Below are positions 14,200 to 63,510 of a stretch of 64,000 nucleotides of DNA, in pieces. Every line of letters starts with the position of its first letter. The first letter of the stretch is position 1. The position numbers and the translations under genes were made by a program. Origin of the DNA: Candidatus Microthrix parvicella Bio17-1 (GTDB taxonomy: Bacteria; Actinomycetota; Acidimicrobiia; Acidimicrobiales; Microtrichaceae); contig NZ_AMPG01000001.1 in the NCBI RefSeq assembly GCF_000299415.1, forward strand, positions 744,001 to 808,000, written 5' to 3'. The notes beneath the pieces are model-generated. The model searched no databases and had not been told where the DNA came from. It saw nothing but the letters and a program-made list of their open reading frames with translations.

Positions 14200-15636
14200 A
14201 TGGAACGACTCAGCGGATCCGACGCGTGGTACCTCTCCCTGGAAACGCCGTCTGCGCCCATGGTGGTCACCGGGGTCATCGGCCTCGACCCGTCAACCGC
14301 CCCGGACGGCTTCGATCCGGCCTCGTTGCGGACACACATGGCGGACCGGGTGCCGCTGATTCCAGCCTTCCGCCGGCGACTGGCAACCGTGCCCCTCAGC
14401 GCCGACAGGCCCCGCTGGGTCGACGACCCCGACTTCGACCTCGACCATCACCTTTCGCTCCACAGGTTCGACGAGCCCGCATCCCACGATGACCTGGCCG
14501 CCTACATCGGCGAGCTGATGAGTCGGCGTCTGCCCCGGGATCGGCCGCTTTGGGAGATGACGCTGCTCGAAGGCCTCACCGGCGGTGCCGCCGCCGTGGT
14601 GCTTCGGATGCATCACGCCATCGTCGACGGCATCTCCGGCGTTGCCCTGATGGCCGACCTGTTCGACCTCACGCCCGACAGCCCTCGCCGCACCGAGGAC
14701 GATCCAGGTTGGGATCCCGAAGCAATGCCGTCGGCCACGCGCCTGCTGGGCGACGGCCTCGGTGCCCGCATCGCCGAGCCGCTGCGACCCCTGCAGATCC
14801 TCTCGCGGACCACTCGGGCACTGGCCGACGCGGGCTTGGCCACCGCCGCCCAGCGCCGCCGCGGTTCCACCGCCGCGGGCCAGCCGATGAACGCGCCCCG
14901 CACTCCGTTCAACCGGTCCCTCACGCCAGAACGCTCGGTTGCGTTCACCAGCCGCCCGTTCGAGGAGTTTCGGCGGTTGCGCCATCACTTCGGCGTCACG
15001 ATCAACGACGTGGTGATGTGTGCCACCGGCATCGGGCTGCGCAACCATCTGAGCGACCTCGGTGAAGCGGTGGACCGACCGTTGGTGGTGTCGGTGCCGG
15101 TCTCGGTGCACGGCGCCGCCGACGACGCCTCCTCCAACCAGGTATCGGCCATGTTCGTGGAGTTGCCGATGGGCCTCGACGATCCGGCGACCATGCTCGC
15201 CGCCGTGTCACGCAGTTCCACCGCATCCAAAGAGGTCAATGCGGCGATGGGGTCCGACCTCATCGGCGATGTCGCCGAACTGATTCCAGGCCCGGTGTTC
15301 AGCGTGGGGGTCGACCTCTACAAGCGGTTGGGCCTGGCCGACCGGCTGCCACCTGTCCACAACCTGGTGATCTCCAACGTGGCCGGTGCACCCGTGCCGG
15401 TGTTCATGGCCGGTGCCAAAGTCACCGGGATGTGGCCGTTTGGGCCGCTCCTCGAGGGCGCCGGACTGAACGTCACGGTGTTCTCGGCAGACGGCGAGAT
15501 GATGCTGGGTGTGGTGACGTGCCCCGAGCTGATCCCTGACGTTCGCAAGGTGTTGGACGCCATCGGTCAGGGTTTGGACGCACTCACCGCCGCCGCCGAC
15601 CGCGGCGACCAGCTGCCCCCAACTACAGAATCTTGA
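14200..15636 (+). CDS. Wax ester synthase / diacylglycerol acyltransferase (WS/DGAT)
   Basis: A 478-residue bifunctional acyltransferase that esterifies acyl-CoA to fatty alcohol or diacylglycerol, building wax esters or triacylglycerol storage lipid. The condensing motif HHAIVDG is at about residue 146, and the C-terminal family block N-L-V-I-S-N-V-A-G-A-P is present. The N-terminal MERLSGSDAWYLSLETP is typical. GATGCT 6 nt upstream may be a leaderless -10. This agrees with a lipid-storing actinobacterium. Its 3' end overlaps the convergent Mrp gene by 14 bp. Confidence 0.92.
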   Translation: MERLSGSDAWYLSLETPSAPMVVTGVIGLDPSTAPDGFDPASLRTHMADRVPLIPAFRRRLATVPLSADRPRWVDDPDFDLDHHLSLHRFDEPASHDDLAAYIGELMSRRLPRDRPLWEMTLLEGLTGGAAAVVLRMHHAIVDGISGVALMADLFDLTPDSPRRTEDDPGWDPEAMPSATRLLGDGLGARIAEPLRPLQILSRTTRALADAGLATAAQRRRGSTAAGQPMNAPRTPFNRSLTPERSVAFTSRPFEEFRRLRHHFGVTINDVVMCATGIGLRNHLSDLGEAVDRPLVVSVPVSVHGAADDASSNQVSAMFVELPMGLDDPATMLAAVSRSSTASKEVNAAMGSDLIGDVAELIPGPVFSVGVDLYKRLGLADRLPPVHNLVISNVAGAPVPVFMAGAKVTGMWPFGPLLEGAGLNVTVFSADGEMMLGVVTCPELIPDVRKVLDAIGQGLDALTAAADRGDQLPPTTES

Positions 15637-16777
15637 GTTCGGGGTGACTGCGCCTGGTGGGCGCCAACTCGGTGTCGATGCGAGAGGCCATGACCTCGAA
15701 CACCTTTGACGCTTCCGCATCGGGGTCCACCGACATGATCGGGTTGCCGTGGTCACCACCCTCGCGCAGCGCCGAAACCAGTGGGATCTGCCCCAACAAG
15801 GGCACCTCCAGGCGATCGGCCAACTCCTGGCCGCCGCCGGCGCCGAACAGCTCGTACCGCTTGCCGTCGTCCCCGGTGAACCAGGACATGTTCTCGATCA
15901 CGCCCTTCACCTCGAGGTTCACCTTGTGGCTCATGAACGCGCTGCGCTGAGCCACCCGCTGAGCGGCCGGGTTGGGTGTGGTCACCACGTACACCTCGGC
16001 CCGAGGCAGAAACTGGGCCAGTGACAGCGAGATGTCGCCGGTGCCCGGCGGCAGGTCCACCACCAGATAGTCAGGGTCGTCCCAGTACACGTCGGTGAGG
16101 AACTGCTCCAGGGCCTTGTGCAGCATCGGGCCGCGCCAGATCACCGCCTGATCCTCCTGAGCGAAGAACCCCATCGAGATGCAGGTGACCCCGTTGGCCT
16201 CGGGCGGCACGATCATCGAGTCGATCACCGTGGGCGGTTGCTCGATGCCCAGCATGCGTGGGATGGAGAAGCCCCACACGTCGGCATCGACGATCGACAC
16301 CTTCTTGCCCTGACGGGCCAGGGCGATGCCCAGGTTGGTGGTGACCGAGCTTTTACCCACGCCTCCCTTGCCCGAGGCGATCAGCAGCACCCGGGTTTTG
16401 TTGCCGGGTTGGGCGAAGGGGATCTGGCGACCCTCGGCGTGCCCGTGCCCCTGGTGGCTGCCCGCCGTGGCGGCAGGGTCGCCGTGCAGTTGTTCGCGCA
16501 GCGCCGCACGCTCGGCATCGGTCATCGAGGTGAAGTTCAACTTCAGCTGATCGACGCCCTCCAGCGAGGTGACCGCCTCGGACACCCGCCGCGTGATCTC
16601 GTCCTTCAACGGACACCCGGAAATGGTGAGGGCGATCAGCACCGTCACCACCGGAAGGTCAATATCGATGTCGCGCACCATGTTGAGGTCGACGATCGAT
16701 CGATGCAGTTCGGGGTCCTCCACCGGTCGGAGCGCCTCGATGATGTCGTCGCGGGTGGGGACGGAGGAGGATGCCAT
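15623..16777 (-). CDS. mrp: Mrp/ApbC family iron-sulfur carrier ATPase
   Basis: A 384-residue protein with an N-terminal DUF59/MIP18 domain (about 1-90, including SGCPLKDEITRRV) and a ParA-like ATPase with deviant P-loop ASGKGGVGKSSVTTNLG. It is expected to bind and transfer [4Fe-4S] clusters. The C-terminal Cys-x-x-Cys seen in the E. coli protein is absent: after ENMSW the sequence runs FTGDDGKRYELFG. Actinobacterial Mrp proteins often lack it, so cluster binding may differ. The cysteine desulfurase gene is divergent 115 nt away, a sensible functional neighbour. Confidence 0.88.
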   Translation of the reverse strand: MASSSVPTRDDIIEALRPVEDPELHRSIVDLNMVRDIDIDLPVVTVLIALTISGCPLKDEITRRVSEAVTSLEGVDQLKLNFTSMTDAERAALREQLHGDPAATAGSHQGHGHAEGRQIPFAQPGNKTRVLLIASGKGGVGKSSVTTNLGIALARQGKKVSIVDADVWGFSIPRMLGIEQPPTVIDSMIVPPEANGVTCISMGFFAQEDQAVIWRGPMLHKALEQFLTDVYWDDPDYLVVDLPPGTGDISLSLAQFLPRAEVYVVTTPNPAAQRVAQRSAFMSHKVNLEVKGVIENMSWFTGDDGKRYELFGAGGGQELADRLEVPLLGQIPLVSALREGGDHGNPIMSVDPDAEASKVFEVMASRIDTELAPTRRSHPELKIL

Positions 16778-31446: not shown

Positions 31447-33066
31447 ATGAGCGCGCTCCTGGCACTAATTCCCGTGCTGGTCGCCATTGCCATCGGTATC
31501 GGCATCGGATTGCTGGGTGGCGGCAACCTCGGCAACCTCCTCCAGTGGCGTCCTGCCGCGTGGGAGGTGGCAGCCGGCGCGATCGCAGTGCAGGTGCTGG
31601 CCGACGCCTTCAGTTGGTCCGGGGTGGTGCCCTTCATCCTCGGGCTCGCCTCGGTGGCCGCGCTGGTCTACGTCGCCTGGATGAACCGTCGCGTCGGCGG
31701 CATGGTGGTGGTTGCGATCGGCCTGGCGATGAACCTCGTGCCGATGTTGATCAACGGCGGCACCCCGGTGTCCGCCGAGGCGCTGGTGTCCTCCGGTGCC
31801 GTCGAACAGGCCCAGGTGGCGTCGGTGCAGCTCACAGGTCCCCGCCATCTGGCCGACGCCGACGACCTGTTACGCCCGCTTGGAGCGGTGGTGCCACTGC
31901 CGATCGGGTTGGTCATCTCCTTCGGCGACCTGGTGGCGCTGCTCGGGGTGACCCTGGTGACCCAGGCGGTCCTGCGCCGCAGACAGGTGCGTGCCGGCGG
32001 TCCCGCCCCACCTGCCCGCAACCCGCGGGTCACGCTGGCCACCTACCAGGAAGCTCTGGAGACCTTGGGGCAGGGCCCCGCCGACAACCGGAACGGCGTC
32101 GAGGTCGAGCACGTCACACTGGGCAGTTCGGGCAACGTCCGCCCAGTTCCGATGCGCAACGCCGACGCGTCCGCTCCCCTCGACGTGTTGGGTCCCCGCC
32201 TGGAGGGCTTCGACGACGAGCACTCGGTGGGCGACCTGAACGATGCCGGCGTCACCGTTTCACCGGTGTCGCGCAGCGATCGGGGCGAGGGTGTGATCCG
32301 CCCCGACGCCTACGCCGACGACCACCGCCCCCGACGCCGCGTGGTGCCGCCCCACGGTGACATCCGACCCGCCCCGTCCGGACTCGACCCGGACACCGGG
32401 GAGTCGTCCGTGGTCGCCCTGACCTCACTGCCGCCCCGCACGACGCCCGATGAATCCGGCCGCCCAACGGACTCCGGCGGCCCGGCCGACCTGCCGCCCG
32501 GCTGGTCTCGGGCGGCCAACCAGACGCGAGATCAGCAACGGTCCCACGCGGCCGCCCCCTACGTTGCGTCACCCACGCCACGGGTCGAACCAACCAACCA
32601 ACCGATCGGTGACGACAACGCCGCCGCCGAGCCGAGCGATGCCACCGCCGCGGTGCCCGTCACCGGTCCAGCCGGACAGCACTCCGCCCGGTCATACGAC
32701 CCAGCCCACAACCGGCACAACCGGCACAACCGGCACAACCGGCACAACCGGCACAACCGGCACAACCGGCACAACCGGCACAACCGGCACAACCGGCACA
32801 GGCAGGACCGCCGGCACCGCCACCGCCGGATCCACCCAGGCCAGAGGCCGGCACCCGGCCCGGAGGAGTCCGACGGCGCGGGGCACCCCCACCCACCTTC
32901 GAAACGCCGCCCCCTCCGCCACCGGACGCTCAAGGGGTCCAGCCGGTCGAGCACGCAAACGTCGGCACCCCCGACCAGAACGAGCAGGTCGACTTCGACG
33001 AGCATGCCGACCTCGACGTCAGCGACTTCATCATCGACGACGTCGGCATCGATGAGGGATCATTGA
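31447..33066 (+). CDS. DUF5317-type membrane protein with frame break at a repeat
   Basis: The first 175 residues form a five- to six-helix membrane domain resembling DUF5317, including GMVVVAIGLAMNLVPMLING. A long hydrophilic, Pro/Asp-rich cytoplasmic-type tail follows. At 32707-32796 the gene runs into ten perfect 9-nt repeats, read here as H-N-R. Beyond the repeat this frame becomes Arg/His/Ser-rich and looks non-coding until its stop at 33066, whereas another frame gives an acidic, coding-like tail to 33245. So the true product probably ends at 33245 and a frameshift (real, or an assembly error in the repeat) lies at or near the repeat. Function unknown. Confidence 0.65.
   Translation: MSALLALIPVLVAIAIGIGIGLLGGGNLGNLLQWRPAAWEVAAGAIAVQVLADAFSWSGVVPFILGLASVAALVYVAWMNRRVGGMVVVAIGLAMNLVPMLINGGTPVSAEALVSSGAVEQAQVASVQLTGPRHLADADDLLRPLGAVVPLPIGLVISFGDLVALLGVTLVTQAVLRRRQVRAGGPAPPARNPRVTLATYQEALETLGQGPADNRNGVEVEHVTLGSSGNVRPVPMRNADASAPLDVLGPRLEGFDDEHSVGDLNDAGVTVSPVSRSDRGEGVIRPDAYADDHRPRRRVVPPHGDIRPAPSGLDPDTGESSVVALTSLPPRTTPDESGRPTDSGGPADLPPGWSRAANQTRDQQRSHAAAPYVASPTPRVEPTNQPIGDDNAAAEPSDATAAVPVTGPAGQHSARSYDPAHNRHNRHNRHNRHNRHNRHNRHNRHNRHNRHRQDRRHRHRRIHPGQRPAPGPEESDGAGHPHPPSKRRPLRHRTLKGSSRSSTQTSAPPTRTSRSTSTSMPTSTSATSSSTTSASMRDH
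32707..32796 (+). repeat. Ten perfect 9-nt tandem units
   Basis: cacaaccgg is repeated ten times without error. All three forward frames stay open through it (H-N-R, T-T-G or Q-P-A repeats). The Q-P-A frame joins the coding-like tail downstream. Confidence 0.95.
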
Positions 33067-35561: not shown

Positions 35562-36143
35562 ATGCGTCTTCCCGCCGCCAAACGTCGCCTCCAGCTTCTG
35601 GCTGTGGCACTGGACGTGTTTGCCGAACGGGGCTTCTATTCCACGTCGATGAACGACGTGGCCGACGCCGCCGGTGTCACCAAGCCGGTGCTGTATCAGC
35701 ACTTCGGATCCAAGCGGGAGCTGTTCGTCGAGCTGCTGGGCGAGATCGGTGCCGGTCTCTCGGAGGTCATCGGCAAGGCCACCGTCGACGCACCCTCCCC
35801 CCGCCAACAACTCGAGGCGGGGTTTGACGCCTACTTCGGTTGGGTCAACGACAACCGCGGCGCGTTCAACCTGTTGTTCTCGGCGGGCACCCAACGCGAC
35901 CCCGATTTTCTGGCCGCGGCACACCAGGTGGAGGACGCCATCGCCGACGTCGTTGCCAACAACATCGTGATCAGCGGCCTCACGCGGGAGCGTCGGGGCT
36001 TGTTGGCCCACGGCATCGTCGGCATGGCGGAGGCCACGTGTCGGCGTTGGATGGCCGACCCGGGCACCATCGACCACGCCGAACTGGCTGCGCAGTTGGG
36101 TGAGCTGGCCTGGTTCGGCCTGAGAGGCATCCGCACGGCCTGA
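35562..36143 (+). CDS. TetR/AcrR family transcriptional regulator
   Basis: A 193-residue repressor-type protein. The HTH is MNDVADAAGVTKPVLYQHFG (about 28-47) with SKRELFVELL after it; the rest is a helical ligand-binding domain. The target is not evident: the gene is divergent from the deacetylase and 35 nt before ppa. I see no strong dyad in the 97-nt divergent region, so autoregulation is unproven. Confidence 0.85.
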   Translation: MRLPAAKRRLQLLAVALDVFAERGFYSTSMNDVADAAGVTKPVLYQHFGSKRELFVELLGEIGAGLSEVIGKATVDAPSPRQQLEAGFDAYFGWVNDNRGAFNLLFSAGTQRDPDFLAAAHQVEDAIADVVANNIVISGLTRERRGLLAHGIVGMAEATCRRWMADPGTIDHAELAAQLGELAWFGLRGIRTA

Positions 36144-37445: not shown

Positions 37446-37451
37446 TAGACT
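37446..37451 (+). promoter_or_regulatory. -10 element TAGACT of the Rieske gene
   Basis: TAGACT immediately precedes and partly overlaps the palindrome at 37450-37465, so transcription should start inside the operator. The mRNA leader to the ATG at 37529 is about 70 nt and contains AAAGAGGAG, a strong ribosome site. Confidence 0.5.
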
Positions 37452-37465
37452 AGAACGCGTTCTAG
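37450..37465. promoter_or_regulatory. KstR-type operator, perfect 16-bp palindrome
   Basis: CTAGAACGCGTTCTAG is fully palindromic. Its inner 14 bases match the mycobacterial KstR consensus TnnAACnnGTTnnA exactly. It overlaps the -10 and predicted start site of the Rieske oxygenase gene, an ideal repressor position. A KstR-like regulator is encoded at 59767-60351. Confidence 0.75.
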
Positions 37466-37528
37466 TTTTGTCGTCGAACGACACCCGGCGCCATCCACCC
37501 GGCGTCGACGTCCCAAAGAGGAGACACC

Positions 37529-38605
37529 ATGGTCACCGGCCCCCTAGGCACCATCAGATCACCGTTCCCCGTACCGTTCGGCTGGTTCGTCGTTGCGTAT
37601 TCCGCCGACCTCGCCGTCGGCGATGTCGAGCCCCTGGAGTACTTCGGCCGCCACCTGGTGCTGTGGCGCGACAACGACGGTGAGGCCCATGTTCAGGATG
37701 CGTTCTGCCCCCACATGGGCGCCCACCTGGGGCACGGCGGCGTGGTCGAGAACTGCGAGATCGTGTGCCCCTTCCACGGCTGGCGCTTCGACAGCGAGGG
37801 CAAGAACACCAACATTCCGTATTCGACCCGCGTGAACAAGCGCGAGGTGGTGCAGCCCTACCCCACGGTCGAACGCAACAGCGTGATCATGGCGTGGTAT
37901 CACCCCACCGATGCGCCCCCCAGCTTCGAGGTGCCCGAACTGGCGGAGTTCGGTGAGGACAGCGACCAATGGACCGACCCAATCCATCGGGAGTACGTCA
38001 TCGAGGCCCCGTGGCAGGAGATCGCCGAGAACGGCGTGGACGCCGCCCACTTCCGGTACGTGCACAACACCGACATGGTGCCCGAGCTCGAGCGCTACGA
38101 CACCGACGGCGAGCGCTCGTTCATGCGCAGCGTCCAAAAGTTTCCGACCCCGCGTGGGGTGGTCGACGGGCGCATCGACTCCGACAGTTGGGGCCCCGGG
38201 CTCTCGGTCATTCACTTCTCGGGCATCGTCGACACGTTTCTGATGGGGTGCAACACCCCGATCAGCGCCAACAAGTGCGTGCTGCGCTTCACCTTCCGCG
38301 TCAAGAAGCTGGGTGACGCCGACACCGAATCCACGGTGGGCAAGGCGTTCGCCGACGAGGTGGGCAACCAGGTGCTGGAGGACATGCCGATCTGGCAGAA
38401 CAAGGCGCACCTGGTGCGTCCGGCGCTGGCCGACAACGACGGACCGTTCATGAAGTTCCGCAAGTGGGCCAGCCAGTTCTACGCCGAGCCGGTGGACGGC
38501 GAGGCCATGGTGTACCCGCCCAACGGCTCGTACCCGGCCGAGAACGATCGGGAGTTGACCGCATCCAAGAAGTTCGGTACCCCCGACCCGGCGTTCAAGC
38601 TGTAG
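37529..38605 (+). CDS. KshA-like Rieske non-heme iron oxygenase
   Basis: A 358-residue oxygenase. The Rieske [2Fe-2S] ligands are in FCPHMGAHLG and CPFHGWRFD (about 53-80). The mononuclear iron site is ENGVDAAHFRYVH, corresponding to the NVTDMAHFFYIH block of mycobacterial KshA, and the C-terminal VLEDMPIWQNK with FRKWASQFY also aligns with KshA. KshA with its reductase KshB 9-alpha-hydroxylates 3-ketosteroids and opens ring B. The exact substrate here is not provable, and no reductase gene lies nearby. Transcription appears to be under a KstR-type operator, which supports a steroid role. Confidence 0.78.
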   Translation: MVTGPLGTIRSPFPVPFGWFVVAYSADLAVGDVEPLEYFGRHLVLWRDNDGEAHVQDAFCPHMGAHLGHGGVVENCEIVCPFHGWRFDSEGKNTNIPYSTRVNKREVVQPYPTVERNSVIMAWYHPTDAPPSFEVPELAEFGEDSDQWTDPIHREYVIEAPWQEIAENGVDAAHFRYVHNTDMVPELERYDTDGERSFMRSVQKFPTPRGVVDGRIDSDSWGPGLSVIHFSGIVDTFLMGCNTPISANKCVLRFTFRVKKLGDADTESTVGKAFADEVGNQVLEDMPIWQNKAHLVRPALADNDGPFMKFRKWASQFYAEPVDGEAMVYPPNGSYPAENDRELTASKKFGTPDPAFKL

Positions 38606-54379: not shown

Positions 54380-55507
54380 TCAGAGGGCGCTCGCCGCTCC
54401 CGGGCCCGGGGTCGGAGCGGACGGGTCGAGCGAGCCGAGGCCGGCCGCCAGGGCCGAGCCGACCACCAGCGCACCGCCCACGATGGCGGGCGCACCGGGG
54501 CGTTCCCCCGCCACCGCCACCGCCATCACGGTGGCCACCACCGGTTCGGCGGTGGCGATCACCGAGGCCCGGGTGGACGAGATGCGGGTCAGCCCCGCCC
54601 CAAGCAACAGGTAGGCCAGCAGCGTTGACGCCAACGACAGCAAAGCGAGCAGACCGGCAACATCCCAGGAGGGCCATGCCAGATCGGCAAAAGGCACCAG
54701 CACCAGCCCGCCGATCAGCATGGCGATGGCGTAGGTGCGAATCGGGCCCAGCAGCTCCACCAGGGTGCGTCCAACCAGGTAGTAGCTCGCGTAGCTCAAC
54801 CCTGCGGTCAGCCCCCAGGCGACCGACGCTGCGCTCACGGTCACGCCTTCGCCTCCGGCCGCTGCGGTAAGGGCCACCCCGCCAGATGCCACCAGCACCA
54901 GCGTGACGGAGCGAGGCGTCGGCCGCATCCAGCCCAGCATGACCGAACCGATCAACACCCACACCGGTGCGGTGTACAACAGCACCCACGCCAGCGTGAT
55001 GCCGCCCCGCTCGATGGCTGCGGGCAGCGCCGTGTAGAAGACCGACACGCCGATGAGCCCAAGCGTCACCAGCCGAACCCACACCATGGGTCGACGCAAC
55101 GGCGATGCCGAAGCACCGGTCGTGCCACCGGAGCCCCGCAACCGTGCCCGCAGCGCCTGCACCAGCCAGATCATCGAGAACCCCACGCCCGCCACCAGTG
55201 CCCGCCACGTGGCCATCGTGACCGGGCTCAGACCACGGTCGGCCAACCCGTTGGCCACCGGGCCGATCGTGCCCCACAGCACCGCTGCACCAAGGACCGC
55301 CAGCGCACCGATCGTCCCCGGGCTGTGCCCACTACCGCCGTGCCCATCACCGCTGTGCCCACTACCGCCGTGCCCACTACCGCCGTGCCCACTACCGCTG
55401 TGCCCACTACCGCCGTGCCCACTACCGCCGTGCCCACTACCGCCGTGCCCACTACCGCCGTGCCCACTACCGCCGTGCCCATCACTGCCGTGCGAGCGTT
55501 GGTTCAC
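54380..55507 (-). CDS. EamA/DMT-family transporter with Gly-Ser-His repeat N-terminus
   Basis: A 375-residue membrane protein with ten predicted helices in two EamA halves; the first starts GALAVLGAAVLWGTIGPVAN and the second AASVAWGLTAGLSYASYYLVG. Such proteins export metabolites or amino acids. The first 65 residues are a tract of Gly-Gly-Ser-Gly-His units encoded by eleven 15-nt repeats; it may bind Ni or Zn, or be neutral. The GTG at 55507 overlaps the fadD stop (GTGA), so it is co-translated with the acyl-CoA ligase and could export or import a substrate of that pathway. That link is inference. Confidence 0.8.
   Translation of the reverse strand: MNQRSHGSDGHGGSGHGGSGHGGSGHGGSGHGGSGHSGSGHGGSGHGGSGHSGDGHGGSGHSPGTIGALAVLGAAVLWGTIGPVANGLADRGLSPVTMATWRALVAGVGFSMIWLVQALRARLRGSGGTTGASASPLRRPMVWVRLVTLGLIGVSVFYTALPAAIERGGITLAWVLLYTAPVWVLIGSVMLGWMRPTPRSVTLVLVASGGVALTAAAGGEGVTVSAASVAWGLTAGLSYASYYLVGRTLVELLGPIRTYAIAMLIGGLVLVPFADLAWPSWDVAGLLALLSLASTLLAYLLLGAGLTRISSTRASVIATAEPVVATVMAVAVAGERPGAPAIVGGALVVGSALAAGLGSLDPSAPTPGPGAASAL
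55324..55488 (-). repeat. Eleven 15-nt tandem units
   Basis: Plus-strand unit cgtgcccactaccgc with a few substitutions, 165 nt in all, encoding Gly-Ser-Gly-His-Gly repeats at the N-terminus of the EamA protein. Copy-number change keeps the frame. Confidence 0.95.
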
Positions 55508-57165
55508 GCCTCCGAGGATGCCCGCTCCTTGGCCCACGGGTAGTCGGCCTTGCCGGTCGGCGAGCGCACCACCTCGTCAACCAGCACCAGCTTGCGAGGG
55601 GCCTTGTACCCGGCGATCGTGCCTTTCACGTGTGCTTTCAGGTCGTCAAGGGTCAGCTCGGTGCCCTCCCTGGGCGCAACGACGGCGGCTACCGTCTCGC
55701 CCCAGCGTTCGTCGGGCACGCCCACCACCACGGTGTCGAAAACGCCCGGGTGGGTTTTCAGCGCCGCCTCGACCTCCTCGGGAAACACCTTTTCCCCGCC
55801 GGTGTTGATGCTGACCGAGCCACGGCCCAGCACGGTGATGGTGCCGTCGGTGTCGACGGTGGCCTGATCGCCGGTGACCGCCCAACGGACGCCGCCGACC
55901 TCGACAAACGTCTCTGCGGTCTTCTTGGGGTCGCCGTAGTACCTCAGCGGCATTCGCCCGGTGCGGGCAACCCTGCCCATGTTGCCCGACCCCGGCTCGA
56001 CCGGCTGCAGGTTCTCGTCGAGCACGCAGGTCACCGCCGGGTCCATCGCAAAACGAGTGCCCTTGCTGGCATCCTCGCCCGGCATGAGCCGCTGGGTGGC
56101 GTGTGATCCGGTCTCGGAACTGCCGTAGCCGTCGGCCAGGATCAGGTTGGGGAGAATCTCCTGAAGACGGGTCTTGTTAGTGGGGTGAAGCGGCGCCCCA
56201 CCGGAGGAAATCGTGTACAGCGAGGGCACCTCGAAGGGCCCCTCGGCCTCCCACGCGTCCAGCAGCGGGCGGGCCATCGCATCACCGATGAGGATCAGGA
56301 TGTTGACCCCTTCGGCGGCAACCTGCCGCCACACCTCGGCACCGTCGAAGCTGCCGGGCAGCAGCACCATCCGTCCGCCGCACAGCCACCAGGACATCGA
56401 GGTCCACTGGGCTGCGGCGTGGATCAGCGGCGCGCAGGCCATCGTCACCACGGCGTCATCAAGGATTCGCTCGGTCAGTTCCTCGGCCGTGGACACCGGG
56501 CCCACGAGCCGCATCGGGTCGCCTCCACCGACACAGGCGAAGAAGGCATCCTCCATGCGCCACTCGACGCCCTTGGGCATACCGGTGGTGCCGCCGGTGT
56601 ACATCAGGTAGACGTCGTCGCCGCTTCGAGCCGGGAAGTCCCGATCGGTCGAGGCCGCCCCCACCGCGTCGTCGTAGTCGAGCGCCCCGAACGTGGTCGG
56701 GTCGGTGGTGGGCACGTCCGCCCGGGGGTCGATGTCGTCAACCACCAGGCTGATGCGAAGGTCGTCGAGTTCGGGTGCCACCTCGGCCAGGGAATCGCTG
56801 AAGCGCCGGTGGAAGACAACCGCCACCGCGTCGCCATCCCGAAGCAGATGCGACAGCTCGGCAGCCACATAGCGGTAGTTGACGTTGAGCGGAACTGCAC
56901 GGATCTTGAACGCGGCCAGCATCGTCTCGACATACTCCGCGCAGTTCTGCAGGTAGCAGGCCACGTGGTCGCCCGGCCCCACCCCCGCGTCGGTCAGGAC
57001 GTGTGCCAGCGCATTGGCCCGCTCCTCAATCTGCCGGTAGGAGACCCGCTGCTCCCCCACCACGAGCGCTTCGCGGTCTGGATACTGATCGGTGGTCAGC
57101 TCCCAAAGATCGGCCAGGTTCCAAGGAACCGGTGAGGTCGCTGCGGTCGTGCTCTGTTCGTTCAT
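55504..57165 (-). CDS. FadD19-like acyl-CoA synthetase
   Basis: A 553-residue adenylate-forming ligase. Core motifs: YTGGTTGMPKGVEWR (ATP/P-loop), GDAMARPLLDAWE, GYGSSETG, and the C-terminal GRGSVSINTGGEKVFPEEVE with the catalytic lysine in RSPTGKADY. Several stretches (INSGGEKV-type block, GDAMARPL, F-N/D-A-x-VWR) follow mycobacterial FadD19, which activates the C26 sterol side chain. The ATG at 57165 follows AGGGGGA. The promoter region carries a KstR-type box. Substrate assignment is inference from pattern and context. Confidence 0.85.
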   Translation of the reverse strand: MNEQSTTAATSPVPWNLADLWELTTDQYPDREALVVGEQRVSYRQIEERANALAHVLTDAGVGPGDHVACYLQNCAEYVETMLAAFKIRAVPLNVNYRYVAAELSHLLRDGDAVAVVFHRRFSDSLAEVAPELDDLRISLVVDDIDPRADVPTTDPTTFGALDYDDAVGAASTDRDFPARSGDDVYLMYTGGTTGMPKGVEWRMEDAFFACVGGGDPMRLVGPVSTAEELTERILDDAVVTMACAPLIHAAAQWTSMSWWLCGGRMVLLPGSFDGAEVWRQVAAEGVNILILIGDAMARPLLDAWEAEGPFEVPSLYTISSGGAPLHPTNKTRLQEILPNLILADGYGSSETGSHATQRLMPGEDASKGTRFAMDPAVTCVLDENLQPVEPGSGNMGRVARTGRMPLRYYGDPKKTAETFVEVGGVRWAVTGDQATVDTDGTITVLGRGSVSINTGGEKVFPEEVEAALKTHPGVFDTVVVGVPDERWGETVAAVVAPREGTELTLDDLKAHVKGTIAGYKAPRKLVLVDEVVRSPTGKADYPWAKERASSEA

Positions 57166-57220: not shown

Positions 57221-57234
57221 TGCAACGTGTTCTA
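57221..57234. promoter_or_regulatory. KstR-type operator between fadD and amidohydrolase
   Basis: TGCAACGTGTTCTA matches the KstR consensus TnnAACnnGTTnnA. On the minus strand CAGACT then AGAACACGTT repeats the layout of the Rieske promoter (TAGACT then AGAACGCGTT), so the fadD transcript would start inside the box. On the plus strand the box abuts the amidohydrolase -10. One repressor could close both genes. Confidence 0.7.
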
Positions 57235-57244: not shown

Positions 57245-58114
57245 ATGGGTATGCCATCGGATCTTGGAATCATCGACACCATGGTCGGGTTTCCGTCCCC
57301 AGACCGTAGCCAGGTGTACAAGTTCATACAGCCTCATCTGCGAGATGAGGAGTCGAAGAGCTTCACGATGCCGGCCGCGTACATGTTCAAGGACATCCCC
57401 CCGGAGATCGATCCCGAGGCCGACCCGGTGGCGGTGGTGCTGATGAACATGGATGCCCACGGCGTCGAGCGCGCCATGGTGAACGTCGCCAAGGACGACC
57501 GCGAGGCACCCCGCCGGGCACTGCGTGACTTTCCCGACCGGTTCATCCCCTGCGCCGAGTTGGACCCCAACGGCGGCATGGACACCGTCCGCCTGTTGGA
57601 GCGACTCGTCACCGAGTTCGGCGTGCGTGCGGTGACCACCACCCCGTTCGCCTACCGGGTGGCCATCAACGATGCCCGCTACTACCCGCTGTACGCCAAG
57701 TGCGTCGAGTTGGACCTGCCCATCTTCGTCACCGCCGGCGTGCCCGGCCCGCGGGTGCCGATGGCCGACCAGAAGGTTGAGCTGATCGACGAGGTGTGCT
57801 GGTTCTTTCCCGAGCTGAAGTTTGTGATGCGCCATGGTGCCGAGCCCTGGGAGGCGCTGGCGGTCAAGCTGATGATCAAGTGGCCCAACCTGTATTACTC
57901 CACCTCGGCCTTCGCCCCGAAGTACTACCCGCAGGCCATTATCGACTACGCCAACAGCCGGGGCGGCGAAAAGATCATCTACGCCGGATACTTCCCCGCC
58001 GGGCTGACCTACGAGCGCATCTTCTCCGAGCTGCCCAACGTGGGGTTCAACGACGACGTGTGGCCCAGGTTTCTGCGCACCAACGCCGAGCGGATTTTGG
58101 GCCTGAACGCGTGA
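57245..58114 (+). CDS. Amidohydrolase-family TIM-barrel protein
   Basis: A 289-residue protein of the amidohydrolase_2 (ACMSD-like) family. It starts LGIIDTMVGFPSPD, where the usual metal-binding H-x-H is not present, and continues with ERAMVNVA, FPDRFIPCAELDPN, FVTAGVPGPR, FVMRHGAEPWE and a final IIYAGYFPAG in place of the common S-D motif. Family members decarboxylate or hydrolyse ring-derived acids. It is divergent from the FadD19-like gene across a shared KstR-type box, which suggests a role in sterol or related degradation. Confidence 0.75.
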   Translation: MGMPSDLGIIDTMVGFPSPDRSQVYKFIQPHLRDEESKSFTMPAAYMFKDIPPEIDPEADPVAVVLMNMDAHGVERAMVNVAKDDREAPRRALRDFPDRFIPCAELDPNGGMDTVRLLERLVTEFGVRAVTTTPFAYRVAINDARYYPLYAKCVELDLPIFVTAGVPGPRVPMADQKVELIDEVCWFFPELKFVMRHGAEPWEALAVKLMIKWPNLYYSTSAFAPKYYPQAIIDYANSRGGEKIIYAGYFPAGLTYERIFSELPNVGFNDDVWPRFLRTNAERILGLNA

Positions 58115-59766: not shown

Positions 59767-60351
59767 TTATGACACGCCCAACAGCTGCCTCACGGTGCGA
59801 GCCAACTTTCGCTGCACCTCGTCGCCCTCGGTCATCCCCGAGATCCAGCCCACCAGCGCGGCCAGCCAGACGTCGAAGAGGGTGTCGGCCATATCGATCG
59901 ACTCGGGGGTCGGCTCCGCGCCCATCGCGGTCACGATCAGGGCGCGCATGGCATCGGTGACGCTCTGCACCACCTCGGCCAGCTCGGCGTTGCCAGAGAC
60001 CAGCGCACGGATCTGGGCGGTGGACACGTCGGGCCGGGCCAGAAGGGCACGATTGGCACGGCCGAGCACGTTGAGCACCCGCTCGGCCGCAGTGACGCCC
60101 ACGGCCGGCCGGTTCTCCAGGTGATCGGCCAGCGCGCGCACCTCAGACTCCATCACCGAGGCCAGCAGGTACTCCTTTGATGGGAAGTACCTGTAGAGCG
60201 TGCCGATCGCCACCTCGGCGCGAGCGGCCACGTCCCGCATCTGCACGCCGTCGAACCCACCCTCCGACGCCAGCGCCGTGCACTCGCGCAGCATGCGCGT
60301 TCGGCGTGCGTCCTGGGCGACGGTCAGGCCTGATCGGATCGTGTCGTTCAC
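59767..60351 (-). CDS. KstR-like TetR-family repressor
   Basis: A 194-residue TetR regulator. Its N-terminal half resembles mycobacterial KstR, the repressor of cholesterol catabolism: ALASEGGFDGVQMRDVAARA then EVAIGTLYRYFPSKEYLL, versus the KGGYEAVQMRAVADRADVAVGTLYRYFPSK pattern split over the same helices of KstR. The C-terminal D-T-L-F-D-V-W-L-A-A-L-V-G-W also recalls KstR. Two KstR-consensus boxes occur in the window (37450, 57221). The GTG at 60351 overlaps the stop of the ThDP-like gene (GTGA); GTG at 60366 is the alternative. No box lies in front of this operon, so autoregulation is not indicated. Confidence 0.8.
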   Translation of the reverse strand: MNDTIRSGLTVAQDARRTRMLRECTALASEGGFDGVQMRDVAARAEVAIGTLYRYFPSKEYLLASVMESEVRALADHLENRPAVGVTAAERVLNVLGRANRALLARPDVSTAQIRALVSGNAELAEVVQSVTDAMRALIVTAMGAEPTPESIDMADTLFDVWLAALVGWISGMTEGDEVQRKLARTVRQLLGVS

Positions 60352-61652
60352 GTACCCGTCGCCCACGCCACCGGGGCACCCGCAACCTCGACGATGGCAT
60401 CGAGATCGTCGACGGCGACGGCCACCTGACGAACCGCCGAGCCGGTAGCGGCAGCACCAACCCTGCGGTAGTCCTCTTCGGTGGCCCGCGCGTGGTCGTC
60501 AGCGCTCAGCCGAGGCGCGTCCGGTGACCAAGCCTGAACCGCAACGCCAACCCCAAGCCGCTCGGCCAGCGCCAGCGTCGCCGCCTCCAGCTCGCCGGAG
60601 GCCGAACCGGCGCGCACTCCCACTGCGGGCCGACCGGCCAAGCGGGCCATCAGCGCACCGGCAGCAGCAAAGCCGGGCAGCGGTGTGGTGGGAATCACCA
60701 CCGATCCTGCGGTGGCGGTCGGGAAGGCACGTCCAACCCAGAACCCAACCAGATCGGCTTCAGCGACCGCCACGGCATGGTCGGGCGCGGCTCCCGACAG
60801 GTGCAGCGCCGCCCGGGGGGCCGACAGCGGCGACCCTTCGCTTTCGTAGGCCGGACCGATGATCGCGGCCAGCGCGTCGTACAGCGGTGGACGGGCGGCG
60901 GGCCCACCATCGGGGGCGGTCCAGCCCTCGGCCGCAAGCGACAACTGGCGAGGATCTAGCTCCACCACATTGCCTGTTGGGCGGGATGGCAGTTCGTCCT
61001 CACCAACCCCGGTGAGGATCACCACCTGTGCCGAGTTCAGCCCACCCAGCTCGGGGTCACGTGCCTGCAGACCACAGGTTCCGGCATGGTAGGGACTGTT
61101 CCAGCGGAACACGCCCTTGGCCATCGGGGTGTTCAGCACCGGCACCCCGAGGCGCTCCGCAAAACCTGCCAGCGCAAACGTTGCATCGGCCCGCACCACG
61201 CCGACACCGGCGACCACCGCCAACCTGGCACCCTGCATCGACGGGCTCAGCTGGAAGGCCATCTGCCGCTCGGGCTCACCGGTGACCGACAGGTCGGAGG
61301 GAACGTCCTGGCCGAGGTCGAGGTCCAGGTGCAGCGCCGTCGTGGCGGGCATCATCGGATCGATGGCGGCCAGGGTGTCCAGGAGTTCCTCCGCCGAGCC
61401 GACCGTGTCGGGGTACGCGGTACCGCCGGGCAGCGAGGACAGGTGTAGCAGTTGCCCGGCCAGCACCGCCGCACCGAGACCGCCGTTGACCGTCCCGTCG
61501 GCGTCGGCCAGCAGCACGGCCAGGTCGGGATCCTCCACGTCGATGTGGGGCAGGCCTTCCCCGGTCAGCCCGAGGTCGAGCCCAACCGTCCGGCGAACAC
61601 CCAATGCCGCCAGTGCGCCGGCCAACGCTGCGCGCAGCGTGCGCTCGGTCAT
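60348..61652 (-). CDS. Thiamin diphosphate-enzyme-like protein lacking the cofactor motif
   Basis: A 434-residue protein that looks like a shortened acetolactate-synthase-type enzyme. The central domain is clearest: LGVPVLNTPMAKGVFRWNSP, then GLQARDPELGGLNSAQVVIL, TGVGEDELP. The N-terminal domain lacks the glutamate-bearing loop of active ThDP enzymes in the usual form, and the C-terminal domain has no G-D-G ... N-N cofactor motif. So it may be a pseudoenzyme or a binding protein. It is tightly coupled to DUF3097 upstream and to the KstR-like gene downstream. Function unknown. Confidence 0.5.
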   Translation of the reverse strand: MTERTLRAALAGALAALGVRRTVGLDLGLTGEGLPHIDVEDPDLAVLLADADGTVNGGLGAAVLAGQLLHLSSLPGGTAYPDTVGSAEELLDTLAAIDPMMPATTALHLDLDLGQDVPSDLSVTGEPERQMAFQLSPSMQGARLAVVAGVGVVRADATFALAGFAERLGVPVLNTPMAKGVFRWNSPYHAGTCGLQARDPELGGLNSAQVVILTGVGEDELPSRPTGNVVELDPRQLSLAAEGWTAPDGGPAARPPLYDALAAIIGPAYESEGSPLSAPRAALHLSGAAPDHAVAVAEADLVGFWVGRAFPTATAGSVVIPTTPLPGFAAAGALMARLAGRPAVGVRAGSASGELEAATLALAERLGVGVAVQAWSPDAPRLSADDHARATEEDYRRVGAAATGSAVRQVAVAVDDLDAIVEVAGAPVAWATGT

Positions 61653-62571: not shown

Positions 62572-63489
62572 TCAGTAACGCAGGCCCGGGGCCCGCGTGC
62601 CAAAGATGTCGATACCAAGTTGGGCGCCCAACTTGGAGGCGTCCCAACGCCTGCCCTTGTTGTTCAGCGTCGGTCCGTCGGCCCAGCCCTTCATCCAGAT
62701 GATGTTCTCGGCCACGGCCCTGATCACCTGCCCGTTGACATGGGCCGCCTCGTCAGAGGCCAGCCAGACCACCAGCGGTGACGACACCGACGGATCCATC
62801 GGGTTCCACTCGCCCTCGTCAACGTCGTTGGCCTCGATGACGGCGGGTGCGCCGGGCATGGTGGCGGTGATGCGGGTGGCTGCCGCCGGACCCACGCAGT
62901 TGACGGTGACGCCCATCTTGGCCAGTTCCAGGCTGAGGGTCTGGGTCATGCCTGCGATGCCCGCCTTGGCGGTGGCGTAGTTGGTTTGGCCAAAGTTGCC
63001 CACCAGGCCCGCACCCGACGTGGTGTTGATGATGCGGCCGCCCACCGGGGCACCGTTGGCCTTGTTGCGCTCCCGCCAGTGGACGGCGGCGTGCTTGGAC
63101 GGAGCCCACGCACCCTTGAGGTGCACGGCGATCACCGAGTCGAAGTCGGCCTCATCCATGTTCCAGATGGCACTGTCCCGCACGATGCCTGCGTTGTTCA
63201 CCAGGATGTCGAGCTGCCCGAAGGTGTCAACCGCCTGGGCAACCATCTCGCCGGCAGCGGCGTAGTCGGCCACGTTGGCATAGTTGGCGGCGGCCTCACC
63301 GCCACGCTCGACGATCAACGCCACCGTGTCGTCGGCCGCCCGGCCGGTGCCTTCGCCGTGCACCGAACTGCCCAGGTCGTTGACCAGCACTTTGGCGCCG
63401 TGCTTGGCCAACTCCAACGCATGGCCGCGGCCGATGCCCTGGCCGGCCCCCGTCACCACTGCCACTTTGCCTTCCAACAACCTGCTCAT
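62572..63489 (-). CDS. SDR-family oxidoreductase (multifunctional-enzyme-type)
   Basis: A 305-residue short-chain dehydrogenase. NAD(P) motif VVTGAGQGIGRGHALELA, then LVNDLG, NNAG in ILVNNAGIVRD, catalytic Ser in NTTSGAGLVG and Y-x-x-x-K in TNYATAKAG. The overall pattern, with a long C-terminal tail, follows the dehydrogenase domain of peroxisomal multifunctional enzyme type 2, suggesting 3-hydroxyacyl-CoA or hydroxysteroid oxidation. The ATG at 63489 has GAGGAG upstream, preferred to 63504. A perfect palindrome overlaps the -10, so it is probably repressed by a TetR-type factor. Confidence 0.85.
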   Translation of the reverse strand: MSRLLEGKVAVVTGAGQGIGRGHALELAKHGAKVLVNDLGSSVHGEGTGRAADDTVALIVERGGEAAANYANVADYAAAGEMVAQAVDTFGQLDILVNNAGIVRDSAIWNMDEADFDSVIAVHLKGAWAPSKHAAVHWRERNKANGAPVGGRIINTTSGAGLVGNFGQTNYATAKAGIAGMTQTLSLELAKMGVTVNCVGPAAATRITATMPGAPAVIEANDVDEGEWNPMDPSVSSPLVVWLASDEAAHVNGQVIRAVAENIIWMKGWADGPTLNNKGRRWDASKLGAQLGIDIFGTRAPGLRY

Positions 63490-63510
63490 GCGTGTGCTCC
63501 TCATCGACGA

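Follow-up and report, generated by a model that had tools for sequence, protein, structure and literature searches.

A KstR-type operator at the promoter of a KshA_C-family Rieske oxygenase gene in Candidatus Microthrix parvicella Bio17-1 and a putative regulon resembling a sterol side-chain programme

Most of what is known about KstR regulation comes from mycobacteria and their near relatives. A KstR-like box lies before a Rieske oxygenase gene in the genome of Candidatus Microthrix parvicella Bio17-1, an actinobacterium of the order Acidimicrobiales. The locus lies in a stretch of 64,000 nucleotides (the window), and an earlier note had described it as a KstR-type palindrome on the start site of a KshA-like gene. 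Judged by sequence comparison, the palindrome is quite probably the operator of a KstR-like repressor controlling the Rieske gene together with a CYP125-like/FadD/thiolase regulon, whose composition points to a sterol-like substrate.

The palindrome, given in the earlier note as a perfect 16-mer, is present as CTAGAACGCGTTCTAG at positions 37450-37465 and extends to a perfect 18-mer, ACTAGAACGCGTTCTAGT, at positions 37449-37466. Within it, positions 37451-37464 (TAGAACGCGTTCTA) match exactly the core TAGAAC(N2)GTTCTA (TnnAACnnGTTnnA) of the KstR operator, which in mycobacteria lies partly over the -10 region (Kendall et al. 2007, PMC1995591). The window has a single copy of the pattern TAGAACNNGTTCTA, and 100 dinucleotide-preserving shuffles gave none; from base composition, the strict pattern is expected about 0.0004 times per 64 kb and about 0.02 times per 4.2-Mb genome, versus two sites seen in the home genome. 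Near-matches found there by pattern search show no excess over a reversed-pattern control (6 versus 10 sites with at most one mismatch; 41, mostly intragenic, versus 143 at two mismatches), and their number was therefore rejected as proof. All six sites with at most one mismatch are intergenic, each a short way upstream of a start, and the box is conserved at the Rieske gene, which argues against chance at home. Four relatives show an excess of sites over the control (17 versus 1, 10 versus 1, 16 versus 3 and 7 versus 2).

The box spans the presumed promoter and not the Rieske start codon. A -10-like element, TAGACT (37446-37451, forward strand), overlaps the left edge of the palindrome, as had been claimed. 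The Rieske ATG, preceded by a Shine-Dalgarno-like GAGGAG, follows the palindrome after 62 nt, at 37529, so that the description of the box as sitting on the start holds for the predicted transcription start only. No -35 consensus was found at this promoter, and a sigma-70 promoter with a -35 box was rejected for that reason.

Two sources supplied the orthologs of the Rieske gene: 148 genomes of the order Acidimicrobiales, and a named genome collection covering Microthrixaceae, strain IMCC26207, Aquihabitans, Ilumatobacteraceae and Candidatus Microthrix, among others. Of the 41 orthologs at 52% identity or above, 29 have a box with no more than two mismatches directly upstream, compared with one of 37 distant homologs (at most 45% identity) and 2.6% of random 300-bp windows from the same loci. 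Six further close orthologs have a perfect box about 0.9 kb upstream, mostly before an amidohydrolase gene lying ahead of the oxygenase gene. The box is also present in the genomes of the cultured relatives Aquihabitans and strain IMCC26207. Alignment of 25 promoters on the box yields TANACTAGAACNCGTTCTAGTTT, in which the TA of a TAnnnT hexamer keeps the same offset, 5 bases before the box, in 18 promoters; the overlap of box and -10 region is therefore a conserved design. The database contigs L193, L197, L220 and L203 are labelled Bifidobacterium breve or Thermoanaerobacterales, yet carry acidimicrobial genes at 53-64% identity, and their labels look wrong.

In the home genome, boxes with at most one mismatch precede the Rieske gene, a KstR-like TetR gene (L009:8840-9460), the amidohydrolase gene adjoining it, a second amidohydrolase gene (L008:10212), an operon encoding an OB_ChsH2_C protein and two thiolases (L010, assigned by Pfam), and an acyl-CoA dehydrogenase gene (L011, also by Pfam). 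Sites with two mismatches were counted toward the regulon when outside genes or within a few bases of a start; these precede genes for a thiolase (L065:4813-5970), a FadD (L061:2308-3939), the substrate-binding protein of an ABC transporter (L009:17049-18572) and a P450 (L060:2653-3993; C1:1512300-1513529). The window itself holds such a weaker box, TGCAACGTGTTCTA (57221-57234), which lies between two divergent genes and precedes the pair: acyl-CoA synthetase FadD (55504-57165, reverse strand; NCBIfam NF005863, 687 bits against a cut-off of 543) and the amidohydrolase 2 family protein AmidoB (57245-58114, forward strand; Pfam PF04909, 2.6e-25). Relatives also have a box before the corresponding amidohydrolase gene. 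By class, the boxed set includes two acyl-CoA synthetases, three amidohydrolases, a CYP125-like P450, a KstR-like gene and a transporter. For this P450, CYP125 is the best natural match among solved structures (3e-108), ahead of CYP124 and CYP142, and an ancestral CYP125 structure matches at 1.7e-143. By family membership, the two L010 thiolases are putatively Ltp3/Ltp4, and FadD is a candidate FadD19. The L010 locus also carries three successive copies of the 3' part of an Ltp-like thiolase gene, two of them partial (L010:1693-5973), with a transposase-like gene nearby (L010 11658-13052).

Elsewhere in the window, a long reading frame contains tandem repeats at about 32700-32850 (His-Asn-Arg in one frame, Gly-Thr-Thr in another), and the N-terminus of a membrane transporter-like protein (54380-55537) carries a long Gly-His-Gly-Gly-Ser repeat. 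A short-chain dehydrogenase gene (62572-63504) contains a perfect 22-bp palindrome, CCAAGTTGGGCGCCCAACTTGG (62615-62636).

Related genomes extend the boxed set. The relative G140 has a box beside a gene for a CYP125-like P450 (1e-110), divergent from a FadD gene, and another before an EchA19-type hydratase gene (379.6 bits in NF005864; 351 bits in the EchA19 model, under its cut-off of 400). The gene classes boxed at home and in relatives agree with the mycobacterial KstR regulon, since that set holds fadA5, fadD17, fadD19, echA19 and ltp2-4 among others. A KstR-type regulon resembling a sterol side-chain programme is well supported by these assignments. The earlier description of the box as KstR-type is borne out by its exact published core, its conserved position over the -10 element and its occurrence before KstR-like and sterol-side-chain-like genes.

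In many relatives the AmidoB gene directly precedes the Rieske gene, each with its own box or both in one operon, and G095 contains two box-amidohydrolase-Rieske operons a few kb apart (L164:6755-8741 and 14634-16577), which suggests that the pair was duplicated. Relatives often also have a boxed OB protein-thiolase operon downstream of the Rieske gene and facing it. The parts are scattered in the home genome, where AmidoB (57245-58114) lies with FadD and the thiolase operon is on another contig. Among solved structures, AmidoB comes closest to an uncharacterised protein and, weakly, to 4-oxalomesaconate hydratase. The conserved amidohydrolase-Rieske pair is a concrete candidate enzyme couple, and one can speculate, as a tentative possibility, that an old, rewired acidimicrobial KstR regulon serves a route for sterols or polycyclic isoprenoids that dispenses with KstD and HsaC, in which the Rieske clade and the amidohydrolase of the box-AmidoB-Rieske operons carry out an undescribed ring or side-chain cleavage step.

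The window encodes a KstR-like protein, as claimed (type A; 59767-60366, reverse strand). It is one of two proteins in the home genome that combine TetR_N with the KstR-type C-terminal domain PF17925, and KstR is the closest solved structure for both (3.6e-32 for type A; 5e-23 for the boxed type B regulator at L009:8840). Both also score best to the NCBIfam KstR model NF033703 (149 bits for type A and 128 bits for type B); because the equivalog cut-off of 280 is not reached, they are designated KstR-like and not certified KstR. The recognition region of type A, VAIGTLYRYFPSK, retains that of KstR, VAVGTLYRYFPSK, and type B has VALATIYRNFTSK. No box lies directly at the type A gene of the window; type B is boxed in G000, G140 and G019, and type A in G140 and G108. 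With two such paralogs, either could be the binder. A gene at 60348-61652, whose product comprises just the central domain of TPP-dependent enzymes, overlaps the start of the type A gene and stays beside the KstR-like gene in G140. The TetR gene nearest to the box (35562-36143, two genes upstream) was rejected as its regulator, its product belonging to PF21943 and being closest to PDB 6o6p/3f1b, not to KstR.

That this nearer TetR gene is not KstR-like would fit another TetR regulator, one of fatty-acid or branched-chain metabolism, acting through the same palindrome on a regulon unrelated to sterols. TetR operators can converge, the boxed FadD, acyl-CoA dehydrogenase and thiolase genes are generic, and nothing among the gene classes given for the KstR regulon of mycobacteria corresponds to the amidohydrolases; the paper on that regulon mentions no amidohydrolase in its main text. 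We consider such a regulator unlikely, given that KstR-type PF17925 proteins occur in all eight genomes examined and in none of 14 control genomes, and that the boxed genes encode a CYP125-like P450 and a ChsH2-type OB protein.

The gene under the operator (37529-38605, forward strand) encodes a Rieske oxygenase of 358 aa with Pfam matches to KshA_C (6.6e-37) and Rieske (5.4e-22), and its best solved structures are KshA proteins (2e-47). The ligands of the Rieske cluster (C60, H62, C80 and H83) and the likely iron ligands (H174, H179 and D285) are invariant in ten orthologs; for this reason the oxygenase should be active. Its identity to Mycobacterium tuberculosis KshA is 26.8%, and in a tree with some weak deep forks, used only for the separation from KshA, the characterised KshA proteins of Mycobacterium and Rhodococcus form a separate 100/100 clade with the window protein outside it. 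Similarly close homologs occur in Myxococcota, Pseudomonadota and Cyanobacteriota. The oxygenase is best placed, on this comparison, in a separate clade of the KshA_C family, as a distant cousin of KshA.

The partner enzymes of the 9,10-seco pathway bear on the same point. KstD and HsaC were not detected in the home genome (95% complete), and the same queries found both in G140, where the KstD match was confirmed as KstD-like by PDB comparison. HsaA was not counted at home, where the query gave only a 27% match to a general monooxygenase family. The KstD, HsaC, HsaA and M. tuberculosis KshA queries are sequences that we take to be those of the named proteins; the KshA query matched 2zyl end to end, and for HsaC and HsaA the support consists of their finding matches in relatives. 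Across the 148 genomes, KstD is present in 2 of the 15 with this oxygenase versus 21 of the 133 without it (p = 1.0). The KstD and HsaC loci of G140 have no box, and the box therefore does not mark ring degradation in that genome. Since both genes are undetected at home and unboxed in G140, and KstD shows no association with the oxygenase, the programme that the box marks is apparently side-chain-like or of a lipid type, as opposed to ring degradation.

A functional KshA under KstR control, 9alpha-hydroxylating 3-ketosteroids, with the ring genes either too diverged to recognise or located in the few percent of the genome that is unsequenced, is accordingly hard to credit. The KshA_C domain and the PDB matches speak for it, as does G061, in which this oxygenase is the sole KshA_C protein, alongside a true KstD. 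The Ltp/OB-protein operon neighbouring the Rieske gene in relatives resembles the Rv3521-ltp4-ltp3 region, which in M. tuberculosis presumably lies next to kshA. Rv3521 adjoins ltp4 in that species (PMC9782250), and the box is placed as at Rv3525c/Rv3526 (PMC1995591). Against these points stand the 27% identity to KshA and the position outside its clade, the undetected KstD and HsaC, and the lack of association with KstD. KshA orthology based on Pfam and PDB matches was rejected on the tree and the absence of KstD and HsaC. The term KshA-like thus stands at the level of family, for domain, ligands and PDB matches, and not of clade; the claimed independent agreement of box and gene function stands for lipid- or sterol-type catabolism generally and falls for 3-ketosteroid 9alpha-hydroxylation. 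The reaction here is probably not the classical 9alpha-hydroxylation leading to the 9,10-seco pathway, and KshA function in Bio17-1 is not supported.

A chance palindrome without function, for which one could cite the other perfect palindromes of at least 16 bp in the window and the home near-matches that do not exceed the reversed control, is extremely improbable in view of its conservation across genera and families, its fixed place over a -10-like element and a strict pattern expected 0.02 times per genome.

Under the preferred reading, a KstR-like operator governing a sterol-type regulon, the box, its conservation, the conserved -10 overlap, the sharing of the box among genes and the kinship of the regulators with KstR are features of the sequences themselves; for binding, repression and inducer we infer the following course. 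A dimer of one of the two KstR-like proteins would bind the palindrome over the -10 element and block RNA polymerase from the Rieske gene. Release would come from an oxidised or CoA-linked product of substrate breakdown (an acid or CoA ester), and the oxygenase would then be made together with the CYP125-like P450, acyl-CoA synthetases, acyl-CoA dehydrogenase, thiolase/ChsH2-type proteins, amidohydrolases and ABC transporter. With CYP125-like, FadD, acyl-CoA dehydrogenase and thiolase/ChsH2-type proteins as partners, the probable substrate is a sterol or some other branched isoprenoid.

Acidimicrobiales are on record as carrying CYP125 genes (PMC10205998), and the class Acidimicrobiia goes unmentioned in a large survey of steroid degraders (PMC4810484); an incomplete literature search found no earlier report of KstR boxes in this class. 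With the same operator and promoter geometry across families of the Acidimicrobiales, the switch would be much older or more widespread than the cholesterol degraders described so far, and sterol-type catabolism would be expected in lake, sludge and soil actinobacteria that are abundant and for the most part uncultured. The regulon also appears separable from ring degradation, since KstD is lacking in most genomes that have the boxed oxygenase; a marker-gene survey that reads KshA-type matches as a sign of steroid ring breakdown could go astray in this group.

The locus is best read as an acidimicrobial variant of the known KstR regulatory system, with an oxygenase substrate that is probably sterol- or isoprenoid-derived. 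Like the Mycobacterium KstR regulon (PMC1995591), the home system has the same operator core, its overlap with the -10 region, an autoregulated KstR-type TetR gene, and boxed genes for a Rieske oxygenase, a CYP125-type P450, FadD, thiolase/Ltp and acyl-CoA dehydrogenase. It differs in its scattered sites, its two regulator paralogs under the equivalog cut-off, its boxed amidohydrolases and its undetected KstD and HsaC, which in the relative G140 carry no box. With KshA (PDB 2zyl, 4qdc) the window protein shares the Rieske and KshA_C architecture, the metal ligands and a KstR-type operator; however, it is only 27% identical, forms its own clade and has CPFHGW where KshA has CPFHDW, its clade occurs mostly in genomes lacking KstD or HsaC, and its gene is paired with an amidohydrolase gene. 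There is likeness also to the CYP125/EchA19/Ltp sterol side-chain module, with gene functions assigned by sequence: a CYP125-like P450 gene is boxed at home and in G140, an EchA19-type hydratase gene is boxed in relatives, and Ltp-like thiolase genes are boxed together with that of an OB protein.
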